A stretch of DNA of 35,088 bases from Methanothrix sp. (GTDB taxonomy: Archaea; Halobacteriota; Methanosarcinia; Methanotrichales; Methanotrichaceae). The notes below the pieces were generated by a model. That model was given only the letters and a program-made list of their open reading frames with translations, was not told where the DNA came from and searched no databases. The stretch lies in contig JAPKYC010000177.1 in the NCBI GenBank assembly GCA_026394505.1, forward strand, positions 1-35,088, in the 5' to 3' direction. A program made the translations under genes and the position numbers. Below are positions 5,641 through 27,655 of the stretch, piece after piece. Every line of letters starts with the position of its first letter. The first letter of the stretch is position 1.

Positions 5641-6300
5641 CTAGTCATCTGCCATTCTGCGGACCCGCTCCAGGGCCAGCAGCGCATCCTCCATCTTGAA
5701 GTCCCGCTTCTCCCTGGCCAAAAATTCGCGAAAACGCTGCAGCTCCTTTTCCTTCACCAGGCCTGATGCATCCGAAAGCATGCGCTCATAGGTTCGATCG
5801 GGAAAGTATTGGGCCTCTGCGAAATGAAATAGCTTGTCTTTGCAGGAAGCGCTAATTACCCCCATCTGCCAGGCCAAATCCAAATTGAAGCGAATATTCA
5901 CCAGCGGCTCGGACCTGGGCTCATAGGAGAATGGATCGAAGACCAGAGCCACCTCATCATCCGAGACCAGATGGCCGCTTTTGTAAGCCTGATAAATCTT
6001 GCCTATGCCCTCCATGCCGTAAATGTCCAGCTCTGAGGCACGCAAGGCTCCCATGCTGGAGGCGCCCAGGACCTTTGCCCCCGCCTCCAGAGCATAGATT
6101 ACCTCCTTGTGAGCCACGGAGCATTCCTGAAAGAAGACGCCATCGATGAGCAGAATGATCCCGGCCCCTTCCTTGGCAGCCAGGTAAATGTCGCCCCGCT
6201 TGGCTGGTGGCCGATAGTCAGCCTCCAAAATCTGCTCCGCCCTAGCCCTGGAGAGGCTTGGCCCTAGGAAGACGACGATTCCTGGCATTTCTGCTGGCAT
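5641..6300 (-). CDS. tfuA: TfuA-like protein (partner of YcaO in thioamide formation)
   Basis: VVFLGPSLSRARAEQIL, DGVFFQECSVAHKEVIYALEAGAKVLGASSMGALRASEL. Alternative start ATG at 6288. Confidence 0.92.
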   Translation of the reverse strand: MPAEMPGIVVFLGPSLSRARAEQILEADYRPPAKRGDIYLAAKEGAGIILLIDGVFFQECSVAHKEVIYALEAGAKVLGASSMGALRASELDIYGMEGIGKIYQAYKSGHLVSDDEVALVFDPFSYEPRSEPLVNIRFNLDLAWQMGVISASCKDKLFHFAEAQYFPDRTYERMLSDASGLVKEKELQRFREFLAREKRDFKMEDALLALERVRRMADD

Positions 6301-7507
6301 CTTTGCACCTTTTCCCCACCCTTTCCGGGTCCACCGCCGCTATCTCAAGCCCCGGCACAATCACCCTGACCACGGGAAGGCCTATCTCCTCGCGAGTCAA
6401 GTCCACTACCACTACCCGATCGAGGCTTGCCTCTTCCAGTTTCTTTAGCATGTATTTTATGTCAAGCAGAAAGTCATCGCTCTCAAAGGACTGGATCTTT
6501 GCAAAGCACTTCGTATCGGTTGCTTCAAACCAGTGCTTGTTAAGCCTCTTGGTCCGATCGTAGCCGATCTGCTTTCTAAAATCAGCTATCGTTGTGTCCT
6601 CTCTCGCCCCGTGAATCTGGGTGAGACGGCTTTGCGCCACCTCGGTGAGGGCGCGCAGCACGGCCACGCCGGCGCTGGTGTGCGTGCCCATGCCCGTGGT
6701 GAGAAGGGTTGGATCGCGCAGCCGTACATCATCGGCCGCGGCCGCGCAGGTCGGAACGCCAATGTCGCTGGTGATATCCCTCAGATAGACATCTACCTCG
6801 GCAGCCGCGAATTTATCCAGGAGGCCTTTCGCCAGGCCGTCCTCAACGTCGCAGATCAAAGGGCCGGCCCTCCTCGTCGCCTCCACCAGGGCCCAGGCAT
6901 CTCTTTCAATAACCTCGGCCAGACCATGAAATATTGCCTCTTCAATCACATTGCCCGAGGCCAGGCCAGTGGTATTGGTTCTAAAGAGGCGTTTGTAATC
7001 GGAGGGCAACGGATGAAAAACGGCATTGGCCGGAACTAAGATCTCTTCGTCATTCATGATGTCCCAGCCGGAAATCCAGGGTATCATGGCATCCGGCTCT
7101 GCCCCCTCCGGCAGGATCAGCTCGCGTGGGTCCAGCGCCCCGTCCAGACGGGAGAAGCAGTCGATTTTAAGCTCCCTGTCTTTCACCTCAGCGGAGTAGC
7201 GCTCCAGGCCCTCCATCATGGCCGATACTTTGGCCTCGGTGGGCGTGGCTCCTTTGCCGTTGTAGACGGAGATGGCACCGCGATCAGCCATGGGCCGGAT
7301 GGAGGAGAAGACGGGTATACCGATTCGGTCCAGATTGGTTATGTCCGCCACCCTGGTGATCCCGGCGGCGGGCAATTTGGCCTCGGCGCGCTTTAGCGTC
7401 TCCTCGGGTGGCAGAGCCCGATGGGTATCGTCTTTGTACTTTTTTATGCAGGACGCAAGTCTCATTGCCTGGGCTAAGGGCAGCGATGGAATATAAACTC
7501 TGTTCAA
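6242..7507 (-). CDS. ycaO: YcaO-domain protein (ATP-dependent backbone-activating enzyme, thioamidation type)
   Basis: NGKGATPTEAKVSAMMEGLERYSAE, GLASGNVIEEAIFHGLAEVIERDAWALVE, AVLRALTEVAQSRLTQIHGARED; overlaps tfuA start. Confidence 0.95.
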   Translation of the reverse strand: MNRVYIPSLPLAQAMRLASCIKKYKDDTHRALPPEETLKRAEAKLPAAGITRVADITNLDRIGIPVFSSIRPMADRGAISVYNGKGATPTEAKVSAMMEGLERYSAEVKDRELKIDCFSRLDGALDPRELILPEGAEPDAMIPWISGWDIMNDEEILVPANAVFHPLPSDYKRLFRTNTTGLASGNVIEEAIFHGLAEVIERDAWALVEATRRAGPLICDVEDGLAKGLLDKFAAAEVDVYLRDITSDIGVPTCAAAADDVRLRDPTLLTTGMGTHTSAGVAVLRALTEVAQSRLTQIHGAREDTTIADFRKQIGYDRTKRLNKHWFEATDTKCFAKIQSFESDDFLLDIKYMLKKLEEASLDRVVVVDLTREEIGLPVVRVIVPGLEIAAVDPERVGKRCKDASRNARNRRLPRAKPLQG

Positions 7508-16481: not shown

Positions 16482-16524
16482 AAAAAAAAAACAAGCCGGG
16501 CCTTCACCAAAGCAAGAACCCGGC
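16482..16524 (-). terminator. Putative terminator of the thioredoxin/CcdA gene
   Basis: Minus strand: GCCGGG (16524-16519) ... CCCGGC (16500-16495), followed by TTGTTTTTTTTTT. Confidence 0.5.
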
Positions 16525-17919
16525 ATACCTCGCCGCATACACCACGCCCACTACTATCACCAGCAGCCCGAAGAATTTGGTAGTCCACTCTCCAATGGAG
16601 ACATACTTCTCTGCGATCCTTCCCCCCACCGTCCGGGAGAAGGTGGCAATGGGAATGATGGGCACGCCATGCCCAAGTCCGAAGATGGCAAGCATCACGC
16701 CTCCCGCCAGGGGTGTGACGTTTTGCGATGCCAGCCAGATCAATACCGGCATCACCATGGAGAGGGCACAGGGCGCCCAGCCCAGGGCAAAGAATATGCC
16801 CAGCGTGAAGGCTCCAAGGAAGGCGGAGTACTTGAATAGACCAATAGAGGTCTCAACCGACCTTTGCAGCAGGCTCTTCTTTGTCTCACAATACGTCCCC
16901 CCTCGATCAGGCCGAATTCGAGAGGTTATGGGCTCCAAGATCTCTTCCAGGGGCTTGAGGTTGCTGATGCCGAGGATGATCATGATCAGGCCGGCTGCCA
17001 GGTCGAAGAGCCTTGAGTCGCGAATGAAAAGGCCCACCTGAGAGATGAAAAGCCCCAGCACAAAGAAGACGGCGGCCATTCCCAGGGTAAAGGCAACTCC
17101 AATCATAAATCCCTCTCTGGAAGTGGAGGCACTCTTCCGCAGATAATCATCCTTCCTGCGCACCGTCAGAACATAGGAGAATACAGCAATCAAGAGAGCG
17201 ATGGAGCATGGAGCCAGCGATGTAAAAATGCCCGCTAAAAACATTGTGGAGGCGGTCACTTCCTGCCCGAAGACCTTTCCCTCCAGGCCCTTCCACATTG
17301 AGCCGCCCACATCTTGCAGCTCTTGGTAAAGCTTCTCTGCACTTTGCACGCCGTCTAACTCGCCCTCGCCCACCCGGTAGACGTGATAGACTCCGGCGAT
17401 ATTGCCATCTTTGTCGATCAGTAGGAGAGTGGGATTTGAGGAGCCGCCCCTCACATTCCAGTAGTCGAGATATTTGCCGGCGATGGTATAAGGCTCAATA
17501 TCCTCCGCCCAGGGCCAGGTGACATTGACCTTCCACCACTTCTCCGCCAGGGACTTGCCATCCCGGGAATAGGGATTCTTCCTCATGTTCAATGTGACTA
17601 TCTGGACACCGGGGTCCATGGCCTTGAGCTTTGCCAGCTCCTCTACCTGTCCTTTCAGGGACTTTTCGCATTCAACGCATAACGGGATCTCGATGTTGGT
17701 GATATGAAAAATAAGGGGAGAGCCCTGAAAGTCGGAAAGAGAGAAGTTCTTACCGTCCACACCAACGGCAGTGAACTCTGGGGCCTGGATGGCCTCGCCG
17801 GCAAAGACGGGGCTGGAAAAGAGAGAGAGGGCGGCCAGGGCGAAAAGGAGCAGAAAAGCTGCCGATTGCAGCTTCTTTTTGTAGGTATTGGCAATTATTG
17901 ATATCACTCTCAGATCCAT
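16504..17919 (-). CDS. Thioredoxin/TlpA-like domain fused to CcdA/DsbD-type transmembrane domain
   Basis: N-terminal signal and PEFTAVGVDGKNFSLSDFQGSPLIFHI...CVEC; C-terminal GIFTSLAPCSIALLIAVFSYVL...GIFFALGWAPCALSMVMPVLIWLASQNV (CcdA helices with paired Cys). Confidence 0.88.
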   Translation of the reverse strand: MDLRVISIIANTYKKKLQSAAFLLLFALAALSLFSSPVFAGEAIQAPEFTAVGVDGKNFSLSDFQGSPLIFHITNIEIPLCVECEKSLKGQVEELAKLKAMDPGVQIVTLNMRKNPYSRDGKSLAEKWWKVNVTWPWAEDIEPYTIAGKYLDYWNVRGGSSNPTLLLIDKDGNIAGVYHVYRVGEGELDGVQSAEKLYQELQDVGGSMWKGLEGKVFGQEVTASTMFLAGIFTSLAPCSIALLIAVFSYVLTVRRKDDYLRKSASTSREGFMIGVAFTLGMAAVFFVLGLFISQVGLFIRDSRLFDLAAGLIMIILGISNLKPLEEILEPITSRIRPDRGGTYCETKKSLLQRSVETSIGLFKYSAFLGAFTLGIFFALGWAPCALSMVMPVLIWLASQNVTPLAGGVMLAIFGLGHGVPIIPIATFSRTVGGRIAEKYVSIGEWTTKFFGLLVIVVGVVYAARYAGFLLW

Positions 17920-18494
17920 GCGGCTCTATTCTGCTTGTAGTAGTAGATGGAATCCTTCACGTAAGCATCGATTCTTTCCTGGCTCATGGCATCAATCTCG
18001 CTGCGCCAGACTACATCCACCGCTCCATCCGGGCCCTTGGCCAGGGTGATGAAGATGGTCGTTGGAACGACCGGTTTTCCGCCGCCGGCCGGATCATAGA
18101 CATCCAGGATATCAATAGCCTGTTGCAAGCTACTTCCTTCCCCCAGAACATCGTCGTATTTGAGATCGCCGCTAAAGCTCTTTGCAGCCGCTTTAATTCT
18201 TGGCGTCTGAGTCAGACACGGTACGCAGTTGCTGCTATGAATCAGGATGAGCACCGACTTCTCCTTGAGAGCTTTCAGAATCCAGTCAGGATGTTTTACC
18301 ACCGAGCCGGAGTTTTCATGCTGATCGGGGTATGTCGTCCACCAGTCGTCATCACCGGAGCCTACTGCATGTGCCGGACTGTAGCTATTCCAATCCAGAG
18401 AAAGGGCAGTGTCCGCCGTTATGAATACGGCCATCGAAAAAGCCGCCATTGCCGCCAATACCAGTAACGTGAAATTCTTGAACTCACTGAGCAT
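17910..18494 (-). CDS. Exported thioredoxin-fold protein
   Basis: Signal-anchor at N terminus; KEKSVLILIHSSNCVPCLTQTPRI (CxxC); overlaps the next gene by 10 nt. Confidence 0.8.
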   Translation of the reverse strand: MLSEFKNFTLLVLAAMAAFSMAVFITADTALSLDWNSYSPAHAVGSGDDDWWTTYPDQHENSGSVVKHPDWILKALKEKSVLILIHSSNCVPCLTQTPRIKAAAKSFSGDLKYDDVLGEGSSLQQAIDILDVYDPAGGGKPVVPTTIFITLAKGPDGAVDVVWRSEIDAMSQERIDAYVKDSIYYYKQNRAAWI

Positions 18495-18809: not shown

Positions 18810-20000
18810 TTAATGATTCTTCAGTATTTTCTTTAGTGCTTCTGCAGCACTTGATTTGACAGAATCGCTCTCATCATCTTGGACTGATTTGATAAGCGCA
18901 TCTGCCGCTTTTGGATCACCAATCCTCCCTAATGCTTCAGCAGAACTTGCTCTAACATTTGACTCTTCATCGTCTTCCAGAACCTCAATCAATGGATCTA
19001 TGGCATTGGAATTGCCGATCATTCCTAAAGCTAAAGCAGCATTAGATCTAACGAGGTTATCTTCGTCGCTTAATGCCGATATCAGGGCATCATTGGCCTG
19101 ATTATTGCCCATGAAACCGAGAGCTTTTGCTGAATTGGCGCGAATATCGCGATCGTTATCGTTGAGTGATTCCGAAAGAGCGTTTATTGCCCTGGCATCT
19201 CCTAAAGATCCCAAAGCAATGGCTGCACCAGCTCTCTTTTCAGGTTTTTCGTTAATGTCACTTAACACCTGCATTAGAGGTGCTAAAACTGGCTCTCCCA
19301 TGAAAGCCAGAGCTCCTGGGACTACTTCATTACTGCAGGATGAACTGCCCATGATATCAATCATTGGGACTATTGCTCTGGTGTCATTGATAAATGCCAA
19401 AGAGACTGCAGCCATGCATGATGTTGGTGAGTCGTTCTTCATTGCTTGAATAAGAGAATCAACAGCTCTGGGATCTTTTATCCAACCAAGAGCAACGGAA
19501 CTTGCGTCTCTCACCTCTCTATTTTCATCCTGCAAACTCTTTATAAGCGGATCTACAGCTCTAGAATCTCTTATCCACCCCAAGGCGATTGCAGAATAAG
19601 CCCTAACTAGGGCGTCGCTATCTTCCAGGCTTATTATGAGTGGATCCACAGCCCTTGGATCCTTAATCCAACCAAGAGAAAGAGCTGCCACCATCCTCGT
19701 TTCTTCATCATCGCTAGACAGAGATTCGATCAGTGGTTCTACAGCCATTGGGTCTTCAATTATATCCATCGCAATTAATGCGAAAACACTGGTTTCCATA
19801 TCATCAGATTTCAATGCCTGTGCGGCAAGATCAATGCCTGTCGCACCCATGTCTACAATCGATGCAAATGCTAATACTTTCGTAACTGGGTTCGAATCGT
19901 TCATTGCATTTTCTATCTTATCTGTGACCTGGTCTGTCGCAGAGCAGCTTCCCGCGGATAGTATCAACAACATTAGGACAAACATAGATATTATTTTCAT
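18810..20000 (-). CDS. Exported HEAT-repeat (PBS-lyase-type) protein
   Basis: Repeats such as ALGWIKDPRAVDPLIISLEDSDALVRAYSAIALGWIRDSRAVDPLIKSLQDENREVRDASS. Start at internal ATG 20000 (MKIISMFVLMLLILSAGSCSATDQ, signal peptide). Confidence 0.9.
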   Translation of the reverse strand: MKIISMFVLMLLILSAGSCSATDQVTDKIENAMNDSNPVTKVLAFASIVDMGATGIDLAAQALKSDDMETSVFALIAMDIIEDPMAVEPLIESLSSDDEETRMVAALSLGWIKDPRAVDPLIISLEDSDALVRAYSAIALGWIRDSRAVDPLIKSLQDENREVRDASSVALGWIKDPRAVDSLIQAMKNDSPTSCMAAVSLAFINDTRAIVPMIDIMGSSSCSNEVVPGALAFMGEPVLAPLMQVLSDINEKPEKRAGAAIALGSLGDARAINALSESLNDNDRDIRANSAKALGFMGNNQANDALISALSDEDNLVRSNAALALGMIGNSNAIDPLIEVLEDDEESNVRASSAEALGRIGDPKAADALIKSVQDDESDSVKSSAAEALKKILKNH

Positions 20001-20072
20001 GAAATCCCTCACTGCAAAAAGGAGGGTTTTCACATAGATATATCTTTGCAGAGCAGTTGATGGAGCCATGCA

Positions 20073-20261
20073 GTGCCAGGTATTCAAGGGGCAGGTGAAC
20101 TGTGGGCCCAGCAGCCAGGGAAGCATCTGGTGGAGAACCTGGTGGCCGATCTGAGCCACGTCACCGACCCAGCCAAACAGAAGCGAGCTATCGAGAACCT
20201 GAAGAAAGCAGATGAGGGAATGGGCAGAGCCGTGGCGGTGGGACTCGGGCTGGAGAGGTAG
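20073..20261 (+). pseudogene. Catalase C-terminal remnant
   Basis: GIQGAGELWAQQPGKHLVENLVADLSHVTDPAKQKRAIENLKKADEGMGRAVAVGLGLE resembles the catalase C-terminal (immune-responsive) domain; no upstream catalytic domain. Confidence 0.55.
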
Positions 20262-20404: not shown

Positions 20405-22468
20405 TCAGTTTCCACCCTTTGCAATCTCCTTGACCTTCTGATTGAACTCCGGCCTTGCCAGCATATCCTGGAACTTTTTCTCAAACAGCTCCTCAAATTC
20501 CTTGTTATCGATCTCTTTGGATTCTCGTTTTGTGGGATCGGATGTGACCGCAGCTGAACTGTCCTCAAAATCCAAGTATATGTTTAGCACATTATTTTCC
20601 ATCTTTGCTATGAATCTGTCAGTTCTACCGTCATCAATTTCCAAGATTACTTCAAGATTTTTATCGTTAAGTTTTAATGAAAGGGAATTTTTTTCGTTGG
20701 ATACTTTGATAGTCTTACTACTACCGATTTTTTCAATGTTTTCAGTTTTTATCCAATCAATACCAAATTTCTGAGTTAGAAATTCTATGAGTATTCCGTT
20801 ATCGTTTCCTGGAATTTCATTCCACCTAAACAACTTCGGGAATATATTGAGCTGTTTGATGAATATCGGCTTCTTGCCCTCTTCAATTCTCTTGAGAGCC
20901 TTCTTAAGCTCCTCCCGCAGGCCGCCGCTGCCATAGAGGTAATTTCTCAGGTATTTCTTGGTGAGATCTGAATAGCCCAGGTAGTCGATGATATTTATTT
21001 CATTTGTCTCGATGTATCTGATGGCTGAATCTATGAGGTCGTAGAGGCGCGACTCAAAGGTCAGATCATTTCCGTTCTGCTTTTTGTTTTGCTCTCCGGC
21101 TTTGCCTCCGTAGGGATTTCGCAGGAGGATCAAGATATCCTCTCCAAAGCCGTTGCCTAGCTTCCTGTAAACATTAGTGTGATCTTCTGCAATTCCCGTC
21201 AAATCCTTTATGGCGGACTTGACCTTTTCAGCGTTGACATAGCCTCTGGCAAAGACATAAGCTCTATCTGCCTTGGATGGAGTACACGGGAACAGCCGGC
21301 ATTCCTCGCTCAAAGCATGCTCTACCAAGGACTTCTCGCCGCCATCAGACTCACCATGCGAATAATAGCAGGGAACTAGAATTGGCGGAAGCAGGATTGT
21401 CTTACCGTTCTCATCTTTAACAACATCATCCGCATCAGCATCCCAGAACACCCTCTTCATCGCCGGAGCGTCATCTTGAAGCTTTGCCCCGGGATAGTTT
21501 CTCAGATCGAACATAGGCTTCATGGAGGCGTAAATGGCGCTATCATTGGCATTGAAGTTGCCCTTGCCATATCTTCTTCTCAAAACCTCGTTGTCTATTA
21601 CAATCAGAGCGTCTAATCCCTCGCCAGCCGGTTTTGTGAGGAGATCGTACATGGCAATAGTTGCTCCGAGGTTTCTCTGGCCTTCTTTGGCTTGTCTTGC
21701 ATCATCTCCTTTCTCAGTTAATATCCCCAGCGCGAAGAACGGAAAGGCTTTTTCTTCCCGTCTGACGTAGCTGGTTATGGGATTGATGAAGCCCGTTCCC
21801 GTTCCCCCTCCAAGCGACGCCAGAAAGAGTATGCTGTCGCACAGCTTATTTTGCATTTCCGGACCGCAAGAAGCTTCCTTATTTTTATTCATCAGGGCGC
21901 CGATCGACCCCAAGGAAGAGCCAATGTTTTTAAGAACTGCAAATTTTGATTTGTTATCCTCGGACGCAGCGACTGATGCCGGGTCAGCCTTCATGCCTGA
22001 GCTTGCTCCTGCTCTCATGCCCAGTACCGTAAACGGTCTGATGCCGACCTTCCACATATACCCGGGAAGCGGATTATCCTCCTTATTGAACTCCTTTCTG
22101 GCCATCGCCTTGACTTTCTCGATTTCAAAGACCTCAAAGATGCCCTTCAAGTACTCAGCACGCCTGTCATAACCCTGCGCCTTGAGGTCGAAACCGTAAG
22201 TGTCCTTAATCCATTTCTTAAAGGGGGAACCTGCAGATATCATTCCGTGGCATATCAGATATCCTGGATACTTTCCTTCCTCAAGGTTCCCAAAGTATGT
22301 CTGGTCCTGAGTATCCTGAGTTGCCGAGTCGAGCCATATTCCCTTCGCATTTCCAAAAGCCAGGTGCTCTCCAAGACGGAACACTGGAAGTTGCACGTCC
22401 TGCGTTTCCAGGAATTTTCCCAGTATATTGCCGCCGGCTCCTCCTATTCCGACTACCATTGGTTTCAT
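20405..22468 (-). CDS. Divergent tubulin/FtsZ-superfamily protein (687 aa)
   Basis: N-terminal VVGIGGAGGNILGKF, tubulin/FtsZ signature LASLGGGTGTGFINPI (about 21788-21811), DALIVIDNEVLRRRYG, C-terminal extension; not a canonical FtsZ. Confidence 0.85.
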   Translation of the reverse strand: MKPMVVGIGGAGGNILGKFLETQDVQLPVFRLGEHLAFGNAKGIWLDSATQDTQDQTYFGNLEEGKYPGYLICHGMISAGSPFKKWIKDTYGFDLKAQGYDRRAEYLKGIFEVFEIEKVKAMARKEFNKEDNPLPGYMWKVGIRPFTVLGMRAGASSGMKADPASVAASEDNKSKFAVLKNIGSSLGSIGALMNKNKEASCGPEMQNKLCDSILFLASLGGGTGTGFINPITSYVRREEKAFPFFALGILTEKGDDARQAKEGQRNLGATIAMYDLLTKPAGEGLDALIVIDNEVLRRRYGKGNFNANDSAIYASMKPMFDLRNYPGAKLQDDAPAMKRVFWDADADDVVKDENGKTILLPPILVPCYYSHGESDGGEKSLVEHALSEECRLFPCTPSKADRAYVFARGYVNAEKVKSAIKDLTGIAEDHTNVYRKLGNGFGEDILILLRNPYGGKAGEQNKKQNGNDLTFESRLYDLIDSAIRYIETNEINIIDYLGYSDLTKKYLRNYLYGSGGLREELKKALKRIEEGKKPIFIKQLNIFPKLFRWNEIPGNDNGILIEFLTQKFGIDWIKTENIEKIGSSKTIKVSNEKNSLSLKLNDKNLEVILEIDDGRTDRFIAKMENNVLNIYLDFEDSSAAVTSDPTKRESKEIDNKEFEELFEKKFQDMLARPEFNQKVKEIAKGGN

Positions 22469-23058
22469 TTTGCTACCTCCTTAAGGCTGCAAACTATGGG
22501 CGTGATCAAAAGGATCAAAGGTGCCACAAGCGTAACATATCCCAGGATCCAGAAAAGATCCCATGATTGCTCACTGGCTTGTGGATAAACCGTCCCATGG
22601 TATATCGATATGGCTATGGATATCATGAGAAGCGGCAGTGCAAAGTTGACCATCAGTGCCTTGATGCCTCTTGATACGATATAATAGCGGTAAACTTTGG
22701 GGATGCTAAAGGCGGCCAAGGCCGTGACGATCATAACCGCAAGACCGAAGACTATCAGGCCGAATTCGCTGGAGGCTATCTGAATCGCCTGGAAGTAGTA
22801 CCAGGGAGATATTCCCGGCGTCTGGAAGAAAAATAAGGCCAGAGCTACAAAGAAGAGCATCCAGGAGGCGATCATAAATGTATTGAAGTTGGAGCCTTGC
22901 GGCAGCTCCAGATGCGTCAATAGCTCCTCCTTCTTAAAGCCGCCATCATTGGTCTCCTTTACCTTTCTGAAGATCTTATTTATGTACAGATTATGAAAGA
23001 CCAATGCCCCGGCCATAATAGCCAGAATCACTACGAGAGGAAAGACTCCCATGCTCAT
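22465..23058 (-). CDS. Polytopic membrane protein (about 5 TM) of the tubulin-like operon
   Basis: Hydrophobic segments FPLVVILAIMAGALVF, IASWMLFFVALALFFF, GLIVFGLAVMIVTALAAF, FALPLLMISIAISIY, ILGYVTLVAPLILLITPIV; ATGA overlaps on both sides. Confidence 0.8.
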   Translation of the reverse strand: MSMGVFPLVVILAIMAGALVFHNLYINKIFRKVKETNDGGFKKEELLTHLELPQGSNFNTFMIASWMLFFVALALFFFQTPGISPWYYFQAIQIASSEFGLIVFGLAVMIVTALAAFSIPKVYRYYIVSRGIKALMVNFALPLLMISIAISIYHGTVYPQASEQSWDLFWILGYVTLVAPLILLITPIVCSLKEVAK

Positions 23059-24491
23059 CTGTAGAACCTCCTTTCAACTAATACCGCGCCCGCCAATGCA
23101 ATGCAAAGCAATGCCAGCCAGTTCACCAGCGCAGGAATTGAGAAGATATCATACTTGACCAGTTTTGCATTGATCTTTCCTTCTCCAATGCCTTCTCTGC
23201 TATTGCTGCTGTGTTGATCGACCTCATCATACACGAATCTGTATCTAAATGGCTGATTCGCATCCTCCACCAGGAAAGGCCTGACATTATACCAGACGGT
23301 GGTTCCCTGGCTGGAGATGTCCCAGTCATTGGATGCCGCAGGCTTCCATTGGTGAGACGGGGTGTATGTCTCCAGCGATACACGCACCTTTGCAGTTCCA
23401 GCTTCCTGGTTTCTCATACCTATGCTGAAATTGTAATCCTGCCACCAGTATTGGTTCTTTTCACCGCTTAGTTTGGGATCTTCAACATATAACGTTACGC
23501 TCTTCCTTAAATTCGGCCCATCAAAGGATCTGGTATTAGTAGTATTGATTCCATCGCTGATCGTGTAATCGTAAGTGAAGTTCTTGCCGGAATCGTCCTT
23601 CGAGAAGAATCCATAATCACCAGCCATGAATACAACATCCTCCCCGGATTTAGCGCTTTGGGTGGCATTGATCTTCTCTGTGTGGTTCAGATCCTGAATA
23701 TGAAGAGTCACAGTGACGGGATCGCTCTCATTATCGACGACACGGGCAATATACTTGATGGGCTCTTTGAACCTTGGCTGAGAGTTCTGAGTAATCAGGC
23801 TGACATTTTCAAGAGTTGGCGGCGTGTTTATGATATTCAATACCAGCTCTGAGAAGAACGGTTCCTGATTTATCTTTTCTTTCGTTGTGTTCCATTCATT
23901 TCGTGTATCTGATACATTGACCATGAATCGGACCACTCCAACCTTTTTCATGTCCTTGAAGTCCACAATCTCCGGCCAGTCGATGGTAGTATAGTTGTAG
24001 TTTCCCTCATCGTTATGCCATTTGTAATCGCTCTGCCCGATGATCTGGGGATATTTGCTGATCTGCTCGTAGCTCTCTCCAGGTTTCTTCTCTTGGAGAT
24101 ATAGCCAGATCACCCGTCTCATGGAATCCTGGGGATTTGTATCCTTAATGTAGCTCATTATTTTTATGGGCTGGGTTCTGGTAATATTGGTTCTGTTCCC
24201 CTTAAAGTACATGTAGACGACTGGCTGGATGTTGTCGCCCTTGGAGGCCGGCTCCTTGTAAAGCAGATCTCGAAGCTGCTGATACTTCTTGTTGTTGTTC
24301 TTCTCATCCTTGGCCTTCTTCACGACATTGATGAGGTCGTCAATAGTTGTCTGCTTATGGCTGCTTCCACTGCTTCCGCTGCTTACCGTGGAATCCGGGG
24401 CACTTGGCTGCGGCCCTGGCACTGCAATCACAGGAACTATTGATAGCAGAAAAGCTGCAATAACAAGCAAGCAAATAGCCTTTTGTCTCAT
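23055..24491 (-). CDS. Exported, C-terminally membrane-anchored protein with Ig/cadherin-like segments
   Basis: Signal peptide AICLLVIAAFLLSIVPVIAV; C-terminal TM IPALVNWLALLCIALAGAVLVERRFYR; many N-x-S/T sequons. Confidence 0.82.
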   Translation of the reverse strand: MRQKAICLLVIAAFLLSIVPVIAVPGPQPSAPDSTVSSGSSGSSHKQTTIDDLINVVKKAKDEKNNNKKYQQLRDLLYKEPASKGDNIQPVVYMYFKGNRTNITRTQPIKIMSYIKDTNPQDSMRRVIWLYLQEKKPGESYEQISKYPQIIGQSDYKWHNDEGNYNYTTIDWPEIVDFKDMKKVGVVRFMVNVSDTRNEWNTTKEKINQEPFFSELVLNIINTPPTLENVSLITQNSQPRFKEPIKYIARVVDNESDPVTVTLHIQDLNHTEKINATQSAKSGEDVVFMAGDYGFFSKDDSGKNFTYDYTISDGINTTNTRSFDGPNLRKSVTLYVEDPKLSGEKNQYWWQDYNFSIGMRNQEAGTAKVRVSLETYTPSHQWKPAASNDWDISSQGTTVWYNVRPFLVEDANQPFRYRFVYDEVDQHSSNSREGIGEGKINAKLVKYDIFSIPALVNWLALLCIALAGAVLVERRFYR

Positions 24492-27400
24492 CAGCTAATC
24501 ACCTCACCGGCAGCCGTTTTGATATCAAACTCAAAATTTCGTATAACGGGCAGGTCTCTCCAGATGATCAGCACCTCGCCGCTTCCTGCCAAATAATTCT
24601 GAGGTTTGCCAATATTCCTCCAATGCACTTTATCTTCTGAACCCAATAGGTCAACAGTAAGGTTGATGGACCCGTTGATCTTGCCGAAATAGTTATACTT
24701 GCCTCTACTCGTCGAATTGAAATTCAAATCCTTATAGATAGCCACGATCTCAGGTCCATTAAACGGAGCGCTATCTAATCCGTTGATGATGAATTTGAAC
24801 TCTGCTGTTCCCAGGAACTCTGTATTGTAGAAGGGCTTGACATCCCAACTTAAATTGCCTTGGGCCGGATCATACTGTTGCTTTTGGCCCGCTCCCTCCC
24901 AGGAACGACCGGGGGCCTTGACGGAAAGCTCTACCCAAGGCCTCTCCTCTAAGCTCAAATTATTGAAATGGGCCGTGTAGACGAAAGCATATAACTCATT
25001 TGGATCCTGCCAAGCCTGCAGTACACCTCTTCTCGGGCTAACATTGCCGATTACATCTAGATGTGATTTTGACGTAGTGCTTGAGCCATTAATTCCGTTG
25101 GAATTCGGTCCACTTTCCCCTGTTTTGACTCCGCTGATGAACGGTCCATAATATTCATCTGATTTAAAAGTCTTCCCTTCGAAGCGGGCAACAAAGTGGT
25201 ATCTAGCATTCTTTCCTTCTGCCTCGGCGCATTTATATTTGAAAGGCTTGGCCGTGAGATTGACCCGGCTCTCACCAGGCGCAGCCGTGCCAGAAGCTCG
25301 CTCTACCCACTCAATGTCAATGTCGCAGGGATTATAGACCTCCAATGCGACCTTCGTCTCGACGCTGGAGTTTACCTGCACAGAGTAGGTAAAGGTATCA
25401 TTCCATTTGCCTTTATCAGGCGCCACAGTCGCATCGGCAAAGTTGATTGATATTGCTTTGACGTCAATCGACTTTTCTGCCAGCGAGAACTCTGCGGCAA
25501 GGCTGGGGTGCTTGTAGCTGATAGTGTAATTGAAACTCTTGTCGATATCTGCCTCATCGAAGGGCAGGCTCCAATCGTAACGATATAGATTGCCGCCCAG
25601 GATAACTCCCTGGCTTGTCTCATCTATGTTCTTTTCCGGCACCTTCAGATGGAGAGTTGCCTGGCCCGGGCCCTGGTCGGCTCCATATTCCACCACAGCC
25701 TGAATGCTGCTGGATGATTCGCTGCCTTCGGAGACATAGACCACCATGGGATCGCTCTCCGGGGAGAGGGAGATCAGTGTTGGTTTTGCTCCCAGGATGG
25801 TCGGACCCCTGTAGGCCTGGGATGATGCAATCTCTTCCCCGGCAAAGATGGCCATAAACTGGTACTTTGCCCCTTGTTGTGCCATCTCCTGGCATTCATT
25901 GGCAAAGGGTCGCAGCGTCCAGTTGATGGACGTATTTGCTCCAATTGCGGCCTCCTTCGTCTCTTTCTTTATCCATGCAAACCTGCATGGATCGAAGATC
26001 TGAAGTTGAACCTTGAGTGGAACGGTGGTGTCCATCTTAAGCGAATATGTGTAGCTGTCATTCCACTGTCCGGCAGGCAAAGAGACGTCTCCTTTCAAGA
26101 ACTGCACGGAGACGGGAGATACATGTATGGTCTTTTTCTCCACGAAGTCGTACCTGCCCCCTTCCAGTTGATCCTGGAGGAAGGATAGGGACAGAGTGTA
26201 ATTATTATTGACGTGGCTTTCATTGAATGTGACCGGCCACTTGTACCGGTACTTGTTGCCTCCCAGAGGAGTTCCCTTCTCTGAGGATTTGAAATCCATA
26301 GAGGGGCCGGTCAGCCTGACTTCAAGATCTCCTGGACCCTTGCTAAACGTAACTGTAGCTGCCATGTCCTGAGGAGAGTCCTCGCCTGAGGAGATGTAAA
26401 CGTTAGCAGGATATAAAAGATCGCCGAGCTTGGGAACCTCTTCTATAACAATAAAGGTTACATTGGCGCTCTTTGCCGAGAAGCCCCATTTATCATTCTT
26501 ATATTCGAATCTGCCCGTAAATGGCGCTATTTTGCTCAATTCTACATCGCTGCGGTTGAAGAGAGCCGGATCGTTCTCATTTGTCCACCTGAATACAAGC
26601 TTCTCTCCGCTGATCTCCGGATCGGATGAGGTGTAAGCGATCTCGCCCTTCTGGGGCTGGCTTATTATGAGCCGTCCCTCCGCATTGCTTCCTTCCATCC
26701 TGGCAGAGGCATCCCGGACGGTGGCCAGAATGGTGAAGTTGGTATAATCAAGTTTTTTGTCAATCTTCGGGCTCTCTGCGGCGGGAGTATAGGGGAGAAG
26801 GGTAATGTTGTAAGGCCCAAAGGTGAGAGGACTCATCTTGAGGTTGTTATAGACCAGCTTGAAAGTGAAATTTCCTCCGTTTCTGTAAGTGGAGAGGGGC
26901 TCATTGAGAGTACAGGTGTAGATGCTCTTTCCAGAGGAGCGGCAATTGACGTCATCCGAATTCCAGGTCCTGGATTCACTGGTTCCCAGAGGGCCTGTGA
27001 TCACCAGAAGGCATGTCGGCTTGGGGTCCAGCCCGTCCTGGTCCTTGAAACCGACTGAGGCGGAGATTCCTTGGAAGAAATAGGGAGTCGCCTTGAAATT
27101 GATTCCCGTTAATTCGGGCTGATGGACGATGGGGCCTGGCAATTTTCCTGTAGTATCCCGAGGGCCGCCTACATTAAGAGAGAACGCAAATGTGGCATTG
27201 TCGGTTTCTTCTATGCCGAATCTATTCTTGAAGTTATAGGGTCCGAAGACAAAAGACAATTTTCCCTGTTGGGTTATTGTTTCAGTGTGTATCTGTTTAT
27301 TATTATAGATAACCAGCGTTAGCTGAAATTTAGTCACTGCGACGGCCCCCGATTTGGCCGCGACTTCAGGACTGAGTGCTACATCTGCAGAGTAGGTGAA

Positions 27401-27655
27401 ATCCTCATAACCATATTCAGGAGTAACTACTGCATTTGCGATTTGATAGTACTGGTCCGCTGCACATGTTGGGACAAGGCATAAAGCAGAAATTATGCTT
27501 ACTAATAATAGCAATAGTGTGAGATTTAGTCTCTCTTTTGCTGCATTCTTGCATAGTGATAAACATAGATCCAATCCTTTGGCAACCAAATCTGCTTTAA
27601 TTCCATTCAAATGCTTCAGCCCCCATGAAATCAAGATGTACTTTACCCCTATCAC
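24491..27655 (-). CDS. Large exported protein with tandem Ig-like repeats (1054 aa)
   Basis: Internal signal-like LTLLLLLVSIISALCLVPTCAADQ; repeated modules (WNDTFTYS/WNDSYTYS, LGGNLYRYDW/LGGNKYRYKW, YNPC/FDPC). Exact start uncertain. Confidence 0.8.
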   Translation of the reverse strand: MIGVKYILISWGLKHLNGIKADLVAKGLDLCLSLCKNAAKERLNLTLLLLLVSIISALCLVPTCAADQYYQIANAVVTPEYGYEDFTYSADVALSPEVAAKSGAVAVTKFQLTLVIYNNKQIHTETITQQGKLSFVFGPYNFKNRFGIEETDNATFAFSLNVGGPRDTTGKLPGPIVHQPELTGINFKATPYFFQGISASVGFKDQDGLDPKPTCLLVITGPLGTSESRTWNSDDVNCRSSGKSIYTCTLNEPLSTYRNGGNFTFKLVYNNLKMSPLTFGPYNITLLPYTPAAESPKIDKKLDYTNFTILATVRDASARMEGSNAEGRLIISQPQKGEIAYTSSDPEISGEKLVFRWTNENDPALFNRSDVELSKIAPFTGRFEYKNDKWGFSAKSANVTFIVIEEVPKLGDLLYPANVYISSGEDSPQDMAATVTFSKGPGDLEVRLTGPSMDFKSSEKGTPLGGNKYRYKWPVTFNESHVNNNYTLSLSFLQDQLEGGRYDFVEKKTIHVSPVSVQFLKGDVSLPAGQWNDSYTYSLKMDTTVPLKVQLQIFDPCRFAWIKKETKEAAIGANTSINWTLRPFANECQEMAQQGAKYQFMAIFAGEEIASSQAYRGPTILGAKPTLISLSPESDPMVVYVSEGSESSSSIQAVVEYGADQGPGQATLHLKVPEKNIDETSQGVILGGNLYRYDWSLPFDEADIDKSFNYTISYKHPSLAAEFSLAEKSIDVKAISINFADATVAPDKGKWNDTFTYSVQVNSSVETKVALEVYNPCDIDIEWVERASGTAAPGESRVNLTAKPFKYKCAEAEGKNARYHFVARFEGKTFKSDEYYGPFISGVKTGESGPNSNGINGSSTTSKSHLDVIGNVSPRRGVLQAWQDPNELYAFVYTAHFNNLSLEERPWVELSVKAPGRSWEGAGQKQQYDPAQGNLSWDVKPFYNTEFLGTAEFKFIINGLDSAPFNGPEIVAIYKDLNFNSTSRGKYNYFGKINGSINLTVDLLGSEDKVHWRNIGKPQNYLAGSGEVLIIWRDLPVIRNFEFDIKTAAGEVIS
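25128..26440 (-). repeat. Two tandem, diverged protein-coding repeat units (~660 nt each)
   Basis: GQWNDSYTYSLKMDTTVPLKVQLQIFDPC at ~26.05 kb versus GKWNDTFTYSVQVNSSVETKVALEVYNPC at ~25.4 kb; LGGNKYRYKWPVTF versus LGGNLYRYDWSLPF at the same spacing. Confidence 0.75.

Follow-up and report, generated by a model that had tools for sequence, protein, structure and literature searches.

We analyzed a 35,088-nucleotide (nt) stretch of DNA from Methanothrix sp. (assembly GCA_026394505.1, contig JAPKYC010000177.1, positions 1-35,088, forward strand), hereafter the window, and concentrate on four consecutive minus-strand open reading frames (ORFs), the last of which encodes a protein related to tubulin and FtsZ (Table 1). 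An initial annotation, made from the letters alone, had described these ORFs at the positions and lengths that we find (1054, 478, 197, and 687 amino acids [aa]), and successive genes do overlap by 1, 4, and 4 nt. Its topologies also agree with hydropathy for all four products: an exported protein, an exported protein with a C-terminal anchor, a protein with about five transmembrane (TM) segments, and a cytosolic protein, the 687-aa product having neither a TM nor a signal helix.

The 687-aa protein is, by sequence and predicted fold, a real member of the tubulin/FtsZ superfamily. By itself it scores just above the PF00091 cutoff (33.4 bits against 33), and 24 out of 24 homologues scanned match this domain (best E-value [E], 4e-9). 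A profile search of PDB sequences retrieves archaeal CetZ, FtsZ, and tubulins (E from 6e-5 to 1e-3), with alignments that run in places from the T4 loop via H7 into the C-terminal domain. The AlphaFold2 model, based on the 24-sequence alignment (predicted local distance difference test [pLDDT], 71; predicted template modeling score, 0.71), has a tubulin-type fold, and solved tubulins rank first in its Foldseek comparison (E 4e-13; TM-score by target, 0.5-0.6). Profile-profile comparison ranks CetZ first (E 4e-15), followed by FtsZ (1e-7) and FtsZl1 (1.5e-5, over T4 only). The PF00091 and PDB profile matches and the Foldseek result rule out a coincidental GGGTGTG motif, and the claim of a divergent tubulin/FtsZ-like protein therefore stands.

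The features of the GTP pocket (T1, T4, T6, and H7) are all conserved in the alignment of 24 homologues. The two signatures singled out in the initial annotation, GIGGAGG and GGGTGTG, correspond to the T1 and T4 loops; the second is invariant and is spanned by the PF00091 match. The T7 loop is eroded while this pocket is kept. No catalytic acid is conserved across the T7 region of the 24 homologues: The acid pair of FtsZ and CetZ (LDYAD, TDLGD) corresponds to QDDAP among members of the window's clade and to PPSLA, PPSQA, and the like elsewhere. The T7 acid drives GTP hydrolysis and is present in FtsZ and alpha-tubulin but not in every superfamily member; beta-tubulin is without it, so loss of the acid does not exclude polymerization. 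Since the acid pair is lost here, GTP hydrolysis of the usual kind is predicted to be weak or absent, and the label "GTPase" is uncertain for a protein with so eroded a loop. After the core (approximately residue 544), all homologues have a variable, flexible linker and then an amphipathic helix; in FtsZ, the terminal peptide binds membrane tethers.

Table 1. Positions of the operon genes, of elements within the FtsZ-like protein, and of neighboring or compared genes (window coordinates unless a locus is named)
Feature	Position	Strand	Basis
Gene 1: exported immunoglobulin (Ig)-like-repeat protein, up to 1054 aa	24491..27655	-	hydropathy, comparison with relatives
Gene 2: 478-aa exported Ig-like protein with C-terminal TM anchor	23055..24491	-	model (pLDDT 80.5), hydropathy
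Gene 3: 197-aa five-TM protein	22465..23058	-	hydropathy, charge pattern
Gene 4: 687-aa tubulin/FtsZ-superfamily protein; core residues 1-544, then linker, C-terminal helix	20405..22468	-	
T1 loop GIGGAGG, residues 7-13	22430..22450	-	alignment
T4 signature GGGTGTG, residues 220-226; the same in all 24 homologues	21791..21811	-	alignment, PF00091
T6 Asp-Asn, residues 292-293, without variation; H7 then opens with Tyr/Phe-x3-Asp/Asn	21590..21595	-	alignment
T7 region, residues 326-340, PGAKLQDDAPAMKRV; catalytic acid pair not kept in family	21449..21493	-	alignment
C-terminal amphipathic helices, residues 655-683, in all homologues	20420..20506	-	model, alignment
Inserted mobile protein module in linker, about residues 547-631	20576..20830	-	absent from closest relative (L032)
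Thioredoxin-like exported protein; outside core operon, kept downstream in window's genus	17910..18494	-	
Redoxin/DsbD-type membrane protein; outside core operon, kept downstream in window's genus	16504..17919	-	
Small second tubulin-like genes in FtsZl1 loci	L218:10566-11459, L219:11630-12529	-	same gene run, beside exported single-anchor protein

In trees that include 16 sequences of the FtsZ-like family, these form a clade of their own with full support (100/100), apart from FtsZ1, FtsZ2, CetZ, and Tubulin_2/FtsZl1. The family and CetZ fall together on one side against FtsZ (100/99), although support for the CetZ clade itself is weak (38/6), and for this reason, together with the long stem of the new clade, its exact attachment is unsure. 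The window protein reaches neither the NCBIfam ftsZ cutoff (23.5 vs. 295 bits) nor that of Tubulin_2 (PF13809; 12 vs. 27 bits, with a best E of 5e-4 in the family). A divergent FtsZ is ruled out by the tree and the NCBIfam cutoff, and membership of FtsZl1/Tubulin_2 by the Pfam cutoff, the profile-profile comparison, and the tree; a divergent CetZ is not supported, although its profile is the closest. Three more PF00091 proteins are encoded in the window's genome; in the tree, they fall with the two FtsZ clades and with CetZ. The main texts of Makarova and Koonin (2010; PMC2875224) and of a 2023 CetZ survey (PMC9856176) do not describe the family, although a table of the survey could list members as noncanonical; this suggests that it is previously undescribed.

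A contig scan with the single window protein returned 0 matches, and the scan repeated with the alignment returned matches. Members of the FtsZ-like family sit in Methanothrix/Methanosaeta and other Methanotrichaceae. Ten genera of the family carry the gene; in the eleventh, the first operon gene lies at the end of a contig. At every locus with a long enough contig, the genes follow the order 1054-like, 478-like, 197-like, FtsZ-like, and the recurrence of this order across ten genera rules out a chance arrangement of neighbors. The genes mostly overlap or lie a few bases apart; a few larger overlaps occur because the mechanical ORF caller chose upstream in-frame start codons. Over aligned codons, the ratio of nonsynonymous to synonymous substitution rates between the window and its closest relative is 0.12 for the 478-aa gene, 0.15 for the 197-aa gene, and 0.12 for the FtsZ-like gene (the 1054-aa gene is left out, since the relative's contig ends). 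These ratios likewise speak against chance. The flanks vary, with RNase HII and an aminotransferase upstream in many genera and thioredoxin-like and redoxin/DsbD-type genes downstream in the window's genus, and we therefore regard the four genes as the unit. RNase HII (rnhB) and the class V aminotransferase are set aside as housekeeping synteny, because the window operon lies away from them and M. soehngenii GP6 has them without the operon.

With the 24-sequence profile as query and a best E below 1e-100 as a strong match, the FtsZ-like gene is found in 45 out of 50 Methanotrichaceae genomes, and in 32 of the 33 with completeness of 90% or more and contamination of 5% or less. Both G073 and G064, which are probably the well-known complete genomes of M. 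thermoacetophila PT and M. harundinacea 6Ac, carry the operon. Three of the genomes without a strong match (G003, G005, and G008) are each no more than 69% complete. A fourth (G030) is no true loss, since its contig breaks off within the 1054-aa homologue, just past the aminotransferase locus. The fifth (G004) is GP6, the single exception among the 33. Searches of GP6 found no homologue of the FtsZ-like, 478-aa, or 1054-aa proteins (the five-TM gene was not searched separately), and at the usual operon site, after rnhB and the class V aminotransferase, the sequence continues into other genes. Judged by gene content, the operon genes are inherited and lost together.

Outside the family, only one out of 394 sampled genomes of the phylum has a strong match: the metagenome-assembled genome (MAG) UBA148 (G105), labeled Methanocellaceae. 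This genome holds the whole operon (locus L180), and its FtsZ-like sequence nests inside the Methanotrichaceae clade. The G+C content of the operon contig is 0.41, close to that of its own genome (0.45) and unlike the two compared Methanotrichaceae loci (0.54-0.57), which makes contamination less likely. The whole unit was probably acquired by horizontal transfer, which the intact operon, the nested position, and the host-like composition make likelier than misbinning.

The exported partners have the features of surface proteins. Apart from a signal-like helix, no TM segment is seen in the 1054-aa product; its GTG start lies approximately 40 codons ahead of that helix, so translation may in truth begin farther downstream. 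It has a conserved C-terminal region (approximately residues 866-1053) and a variable number of repeats (relatives range from 537 to 1460 aa), as expected for a surface-exposed protein, and it is essentially present in one copy per genome, tied to the operon. The 478-aa protein comprises a signal peptide, a Ser/Gly-rich linker, a short helical region, a chain of Ig-like beta-domains, and a TM segment at 454-472. Its model predicts beads of Ig-like domains on a single TM helix, with generic Ig/MG-domain matches alone in Foldseek. N-glycosylation sequons are two- to threefold in excess of shuffled sequences in the two exported proteins (23 vs. 9.2 in the 1054-aa and 12 vs. 4.6 in the 478-aa protein) and not enriched in the other two (0 vs. 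0.6 and 2 vs. 3.7). In most homologues of the 197-aa protein, loops 1 and 3 are positively charged and loops 2 and 4 neutral to negative, and from this positive-inside pattern we predict an N-out/C-in orientation. Its conserved loops (residues 24-59 and 120-133) would then be cytoplasmic, where they could meet the tail of the FtsZ-like protein.

Methanothrix is a major acetate-using methanogen that grows as multicellular sheathed chains. The reading we prefer for the operon, tentatively and at a little less than an even chance, is a membrane-tethered scaffold of the tubulin type, slow in hydrolysis, that determines where a surface attachment complex sits. The four products would form one trans-envelope complex, its cytoplasmic part being a new, Methanotrichaceae-specific tubulin-superfamily protein. 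GTP-bound subunits would assemble into filaments with slow or no turnover; the C-terminal helix would dock onto the cytoplasmic loops of the five-TM protein, which in turn would hold the anchored Ig-like protein, and this would keep the secreted protein outside the membrane. We infer that such a filament would place and cluster the surface complex, for cell-to-sheath or cell-to-cell attachment or for local shape, rather than build the sheath. The initial annotation had likewise proposed a trans-envelope machine that organizes a surface structure, with the sheath as one possible object. The divergent tubulin/FtsZ protein and its conserved co-encoding with a polytopic and two exported Ig-like proteins are supported; the products may organize some surface structure, and the sheath as the object is not supported, as discussed below.

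Several points weigh against a positioning scaffold. Polymerization, GTP binding, interaction of the products, and localization are predictions in this reading, and a kept operon order is no proof of a physical complex. The C-terminal helix could serve dimerization instead of tethering. Confidence in the model of the FtsZ-like protein is moderate and the placement of its domains uncertain, and one high-quality relative, GP6, lives without the FtsZ-like and exported-protein genes. Possibly, though less likely than not, the operon adds to FtsZ1, FtsZ2, CetZ, and FtsZl1 another class of archaeal cytoskeleton from the tubulin superfamily, specialized in a multicellular filament-forming lineage. 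A dedicated five-TM receptor together with the anchored Ig-like protein would couple it physically to a secreted, adhesin-like protein, and the whole would be a transmembrane cytoskeleton-to-surface linkage that evolved in archaea. The family-wide operon is a testable candidate for how Methanothrix cells organize envelope and filament, and its natural absence from GP6 provides a comparison lineage.

Among the alternatives, an accessory divisome or septation module, which would join or follow the FtsZ1/FtsZ2 ring and couple septation within the shared filament to the envelope or to intercellular plugs, survives best but is unlikely. The core, linker, and terminal helix follow the layout of FtsZ, and the hosts form filaments with plugs between cells (PMC11576556). 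However, FtsZ1, FtsZ2, and CetZ are all present alongside the FtsZ-like protein, they remain in GP6 where it is dispensable, and no division genes were found in the operon neighborhood. Less probable again is a nucleotide-dependent switch that binds GTP without forming filaments and regulates the five-TM protein or the display of surface proteins. This would account for the kept pocket and the erosion of T7, the loop that completes the active site of the neighboring subunit in a filament; but the profile and fold comparisons indicate that the tubulin-type C-terminal domain and the connecting region are kept, beyond what a switch needs, and the example of beta-tubulin leaves polymerization compatible with loss of the acid.

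We consider it improbable that the operon encodes a machine for membrane remodeling or secretion such as has been proposed for FtsZl1. The archaeal FtsZl1 loci resemble it in layout (an FtsZ-like protein, an exported single-anchor protein, and TM proteins), but no homology was found between the partners in the two systems, and genes for vWA proteins, kinases, or P-loop GTPases were not found adjoining the operon, in line with the distinction from the Makarova-Koonin family drawn in the initial annotation. A sheath assembly factor, building or positioning the amyloid rings, is the least credible alternative: The host family is sheathed, sheath adhesins too have Ig-like domains (PMC11576556), and in the window's genus the operon is followed by thioredoxin/DsbD-type genes, but GP6 lacks the FtsZ-like and both exported-protein genes although, according to a 2024 survey, every member of the Methanotrichales carries sheath proteins, which argues against a necessary role, sheath genes are reported to have no conserved genomic context (PMC11576556), and the operon was not found in sampled genomes of other families, bar one MAG.

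An 88-aa mobile module inserted exactly in the linker makes the 687-aa length of the window's FtsZ-like protein atypical; no other of the 24 aligned proteins has this insert, and homologues without it include some of 515-560 aa. The module (85-88 aa; F.W.EIPG.D...L.EFL..KFGIDW ... EIDDGRTD.FIAKMENN.LNIY) looks, from its sequence distribution, like a mobile in-frame element. It lies in frame inside otherwise unrelated proteins (TPR proteins, a PDDEXK protein, a Tail_P2_I protein, and the FtsZ-like linker) and is present in 12 out of 50 Methanotrichaceae genomes, at one to three copies each (loci include L064-L071). Directly downstream of the operon, the window encodes an exported protein with HEAT/PBS-lyase-type repeats (18810-20180, minus strand), which is ruled out as a partner since it is not kept beside the operon in relatives. 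The thioredoxin-like and redoxin/DsbD-type genes (16504-18494, minus strand) may be set beside the DsbB and DsbD mentioned for sheathed archaea, in which disulfides hold the hoops together (PMC11576556). The window also contains a YcaO-family gene (6242-7507, minus strand; PF02624, E 8e-95). A defense or phage system is rejected, with no match in PADLOC or PHROGs.

Compared with known systems, the exported proteins recall the SH proteins with Ig-like extensions of the same archaeal family, which are likewise exported but reach 40 copies per genome (PMC11576556), in contrast to the essentially single, operon-bound 1054-aa protein. FtsZl1/Tubulin_2 (PMC2875224) is likewise divergent and co-encoded with membrane and exported proteins; the window protein falls below its Pfam cutoff, the present family aligns with it over T4 alone, no extended coiled coil was seen, and FtsZl1 was not found in the sampled Methanotrichaceae genomes. 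In three other archaeal families, FtsZl1 loci combine FtsZl1 with an exported single-anchor protein and TM proteins, and given a similar layout without homologous partners, the two arrangements may, by analogy, be parallel solutions to the same problem. Two of the three loci also encode a second small tubulin-superfamily protein (297-299 aa; PF00091 E 0.003 and 8e-9). FtsZ-like 2 (the PFL_1302 family) is described as proteobacterial and lacking conserved neighbors (PMC2875224).

The FtsZ-like family resembles FtsZ1 and FtsZ2 in its core fold and in having a flexible linker that leads to a short helix at the end, but it forms a separate clade, has lost the T7 acids, and scores far under the NCBIfam ftsZ cutoff. 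Tubulins (eukaryotic, Asgard, and bacterial BtubA) give the best fold matches, with alignment via H7 and T7 into the C-terminal domain; identity is approximately 11%, the family belongs to archaeal methanogens, and nothing points to microtubule-type assembly. CetZ, the nearest profile, shares a VDNQ-type T6 and a tubulin-like C-terminal region; PDB 3ZID in our hit list is probably the CetZ of Methanothrix thermoacetophila (PMC9856176). CetZ is encoded in the window's genome as another gene, and the FtsZ-like family differs from it in its separate clade, long T1-T4 insertions, linker and terminal helix, lost T7 acids, and own four-gene operon. The family thus adds to the tubulin superfamily, near CetZ, a clade with an eroded T7 loop, which is useful for asking which members require GTP turnover.

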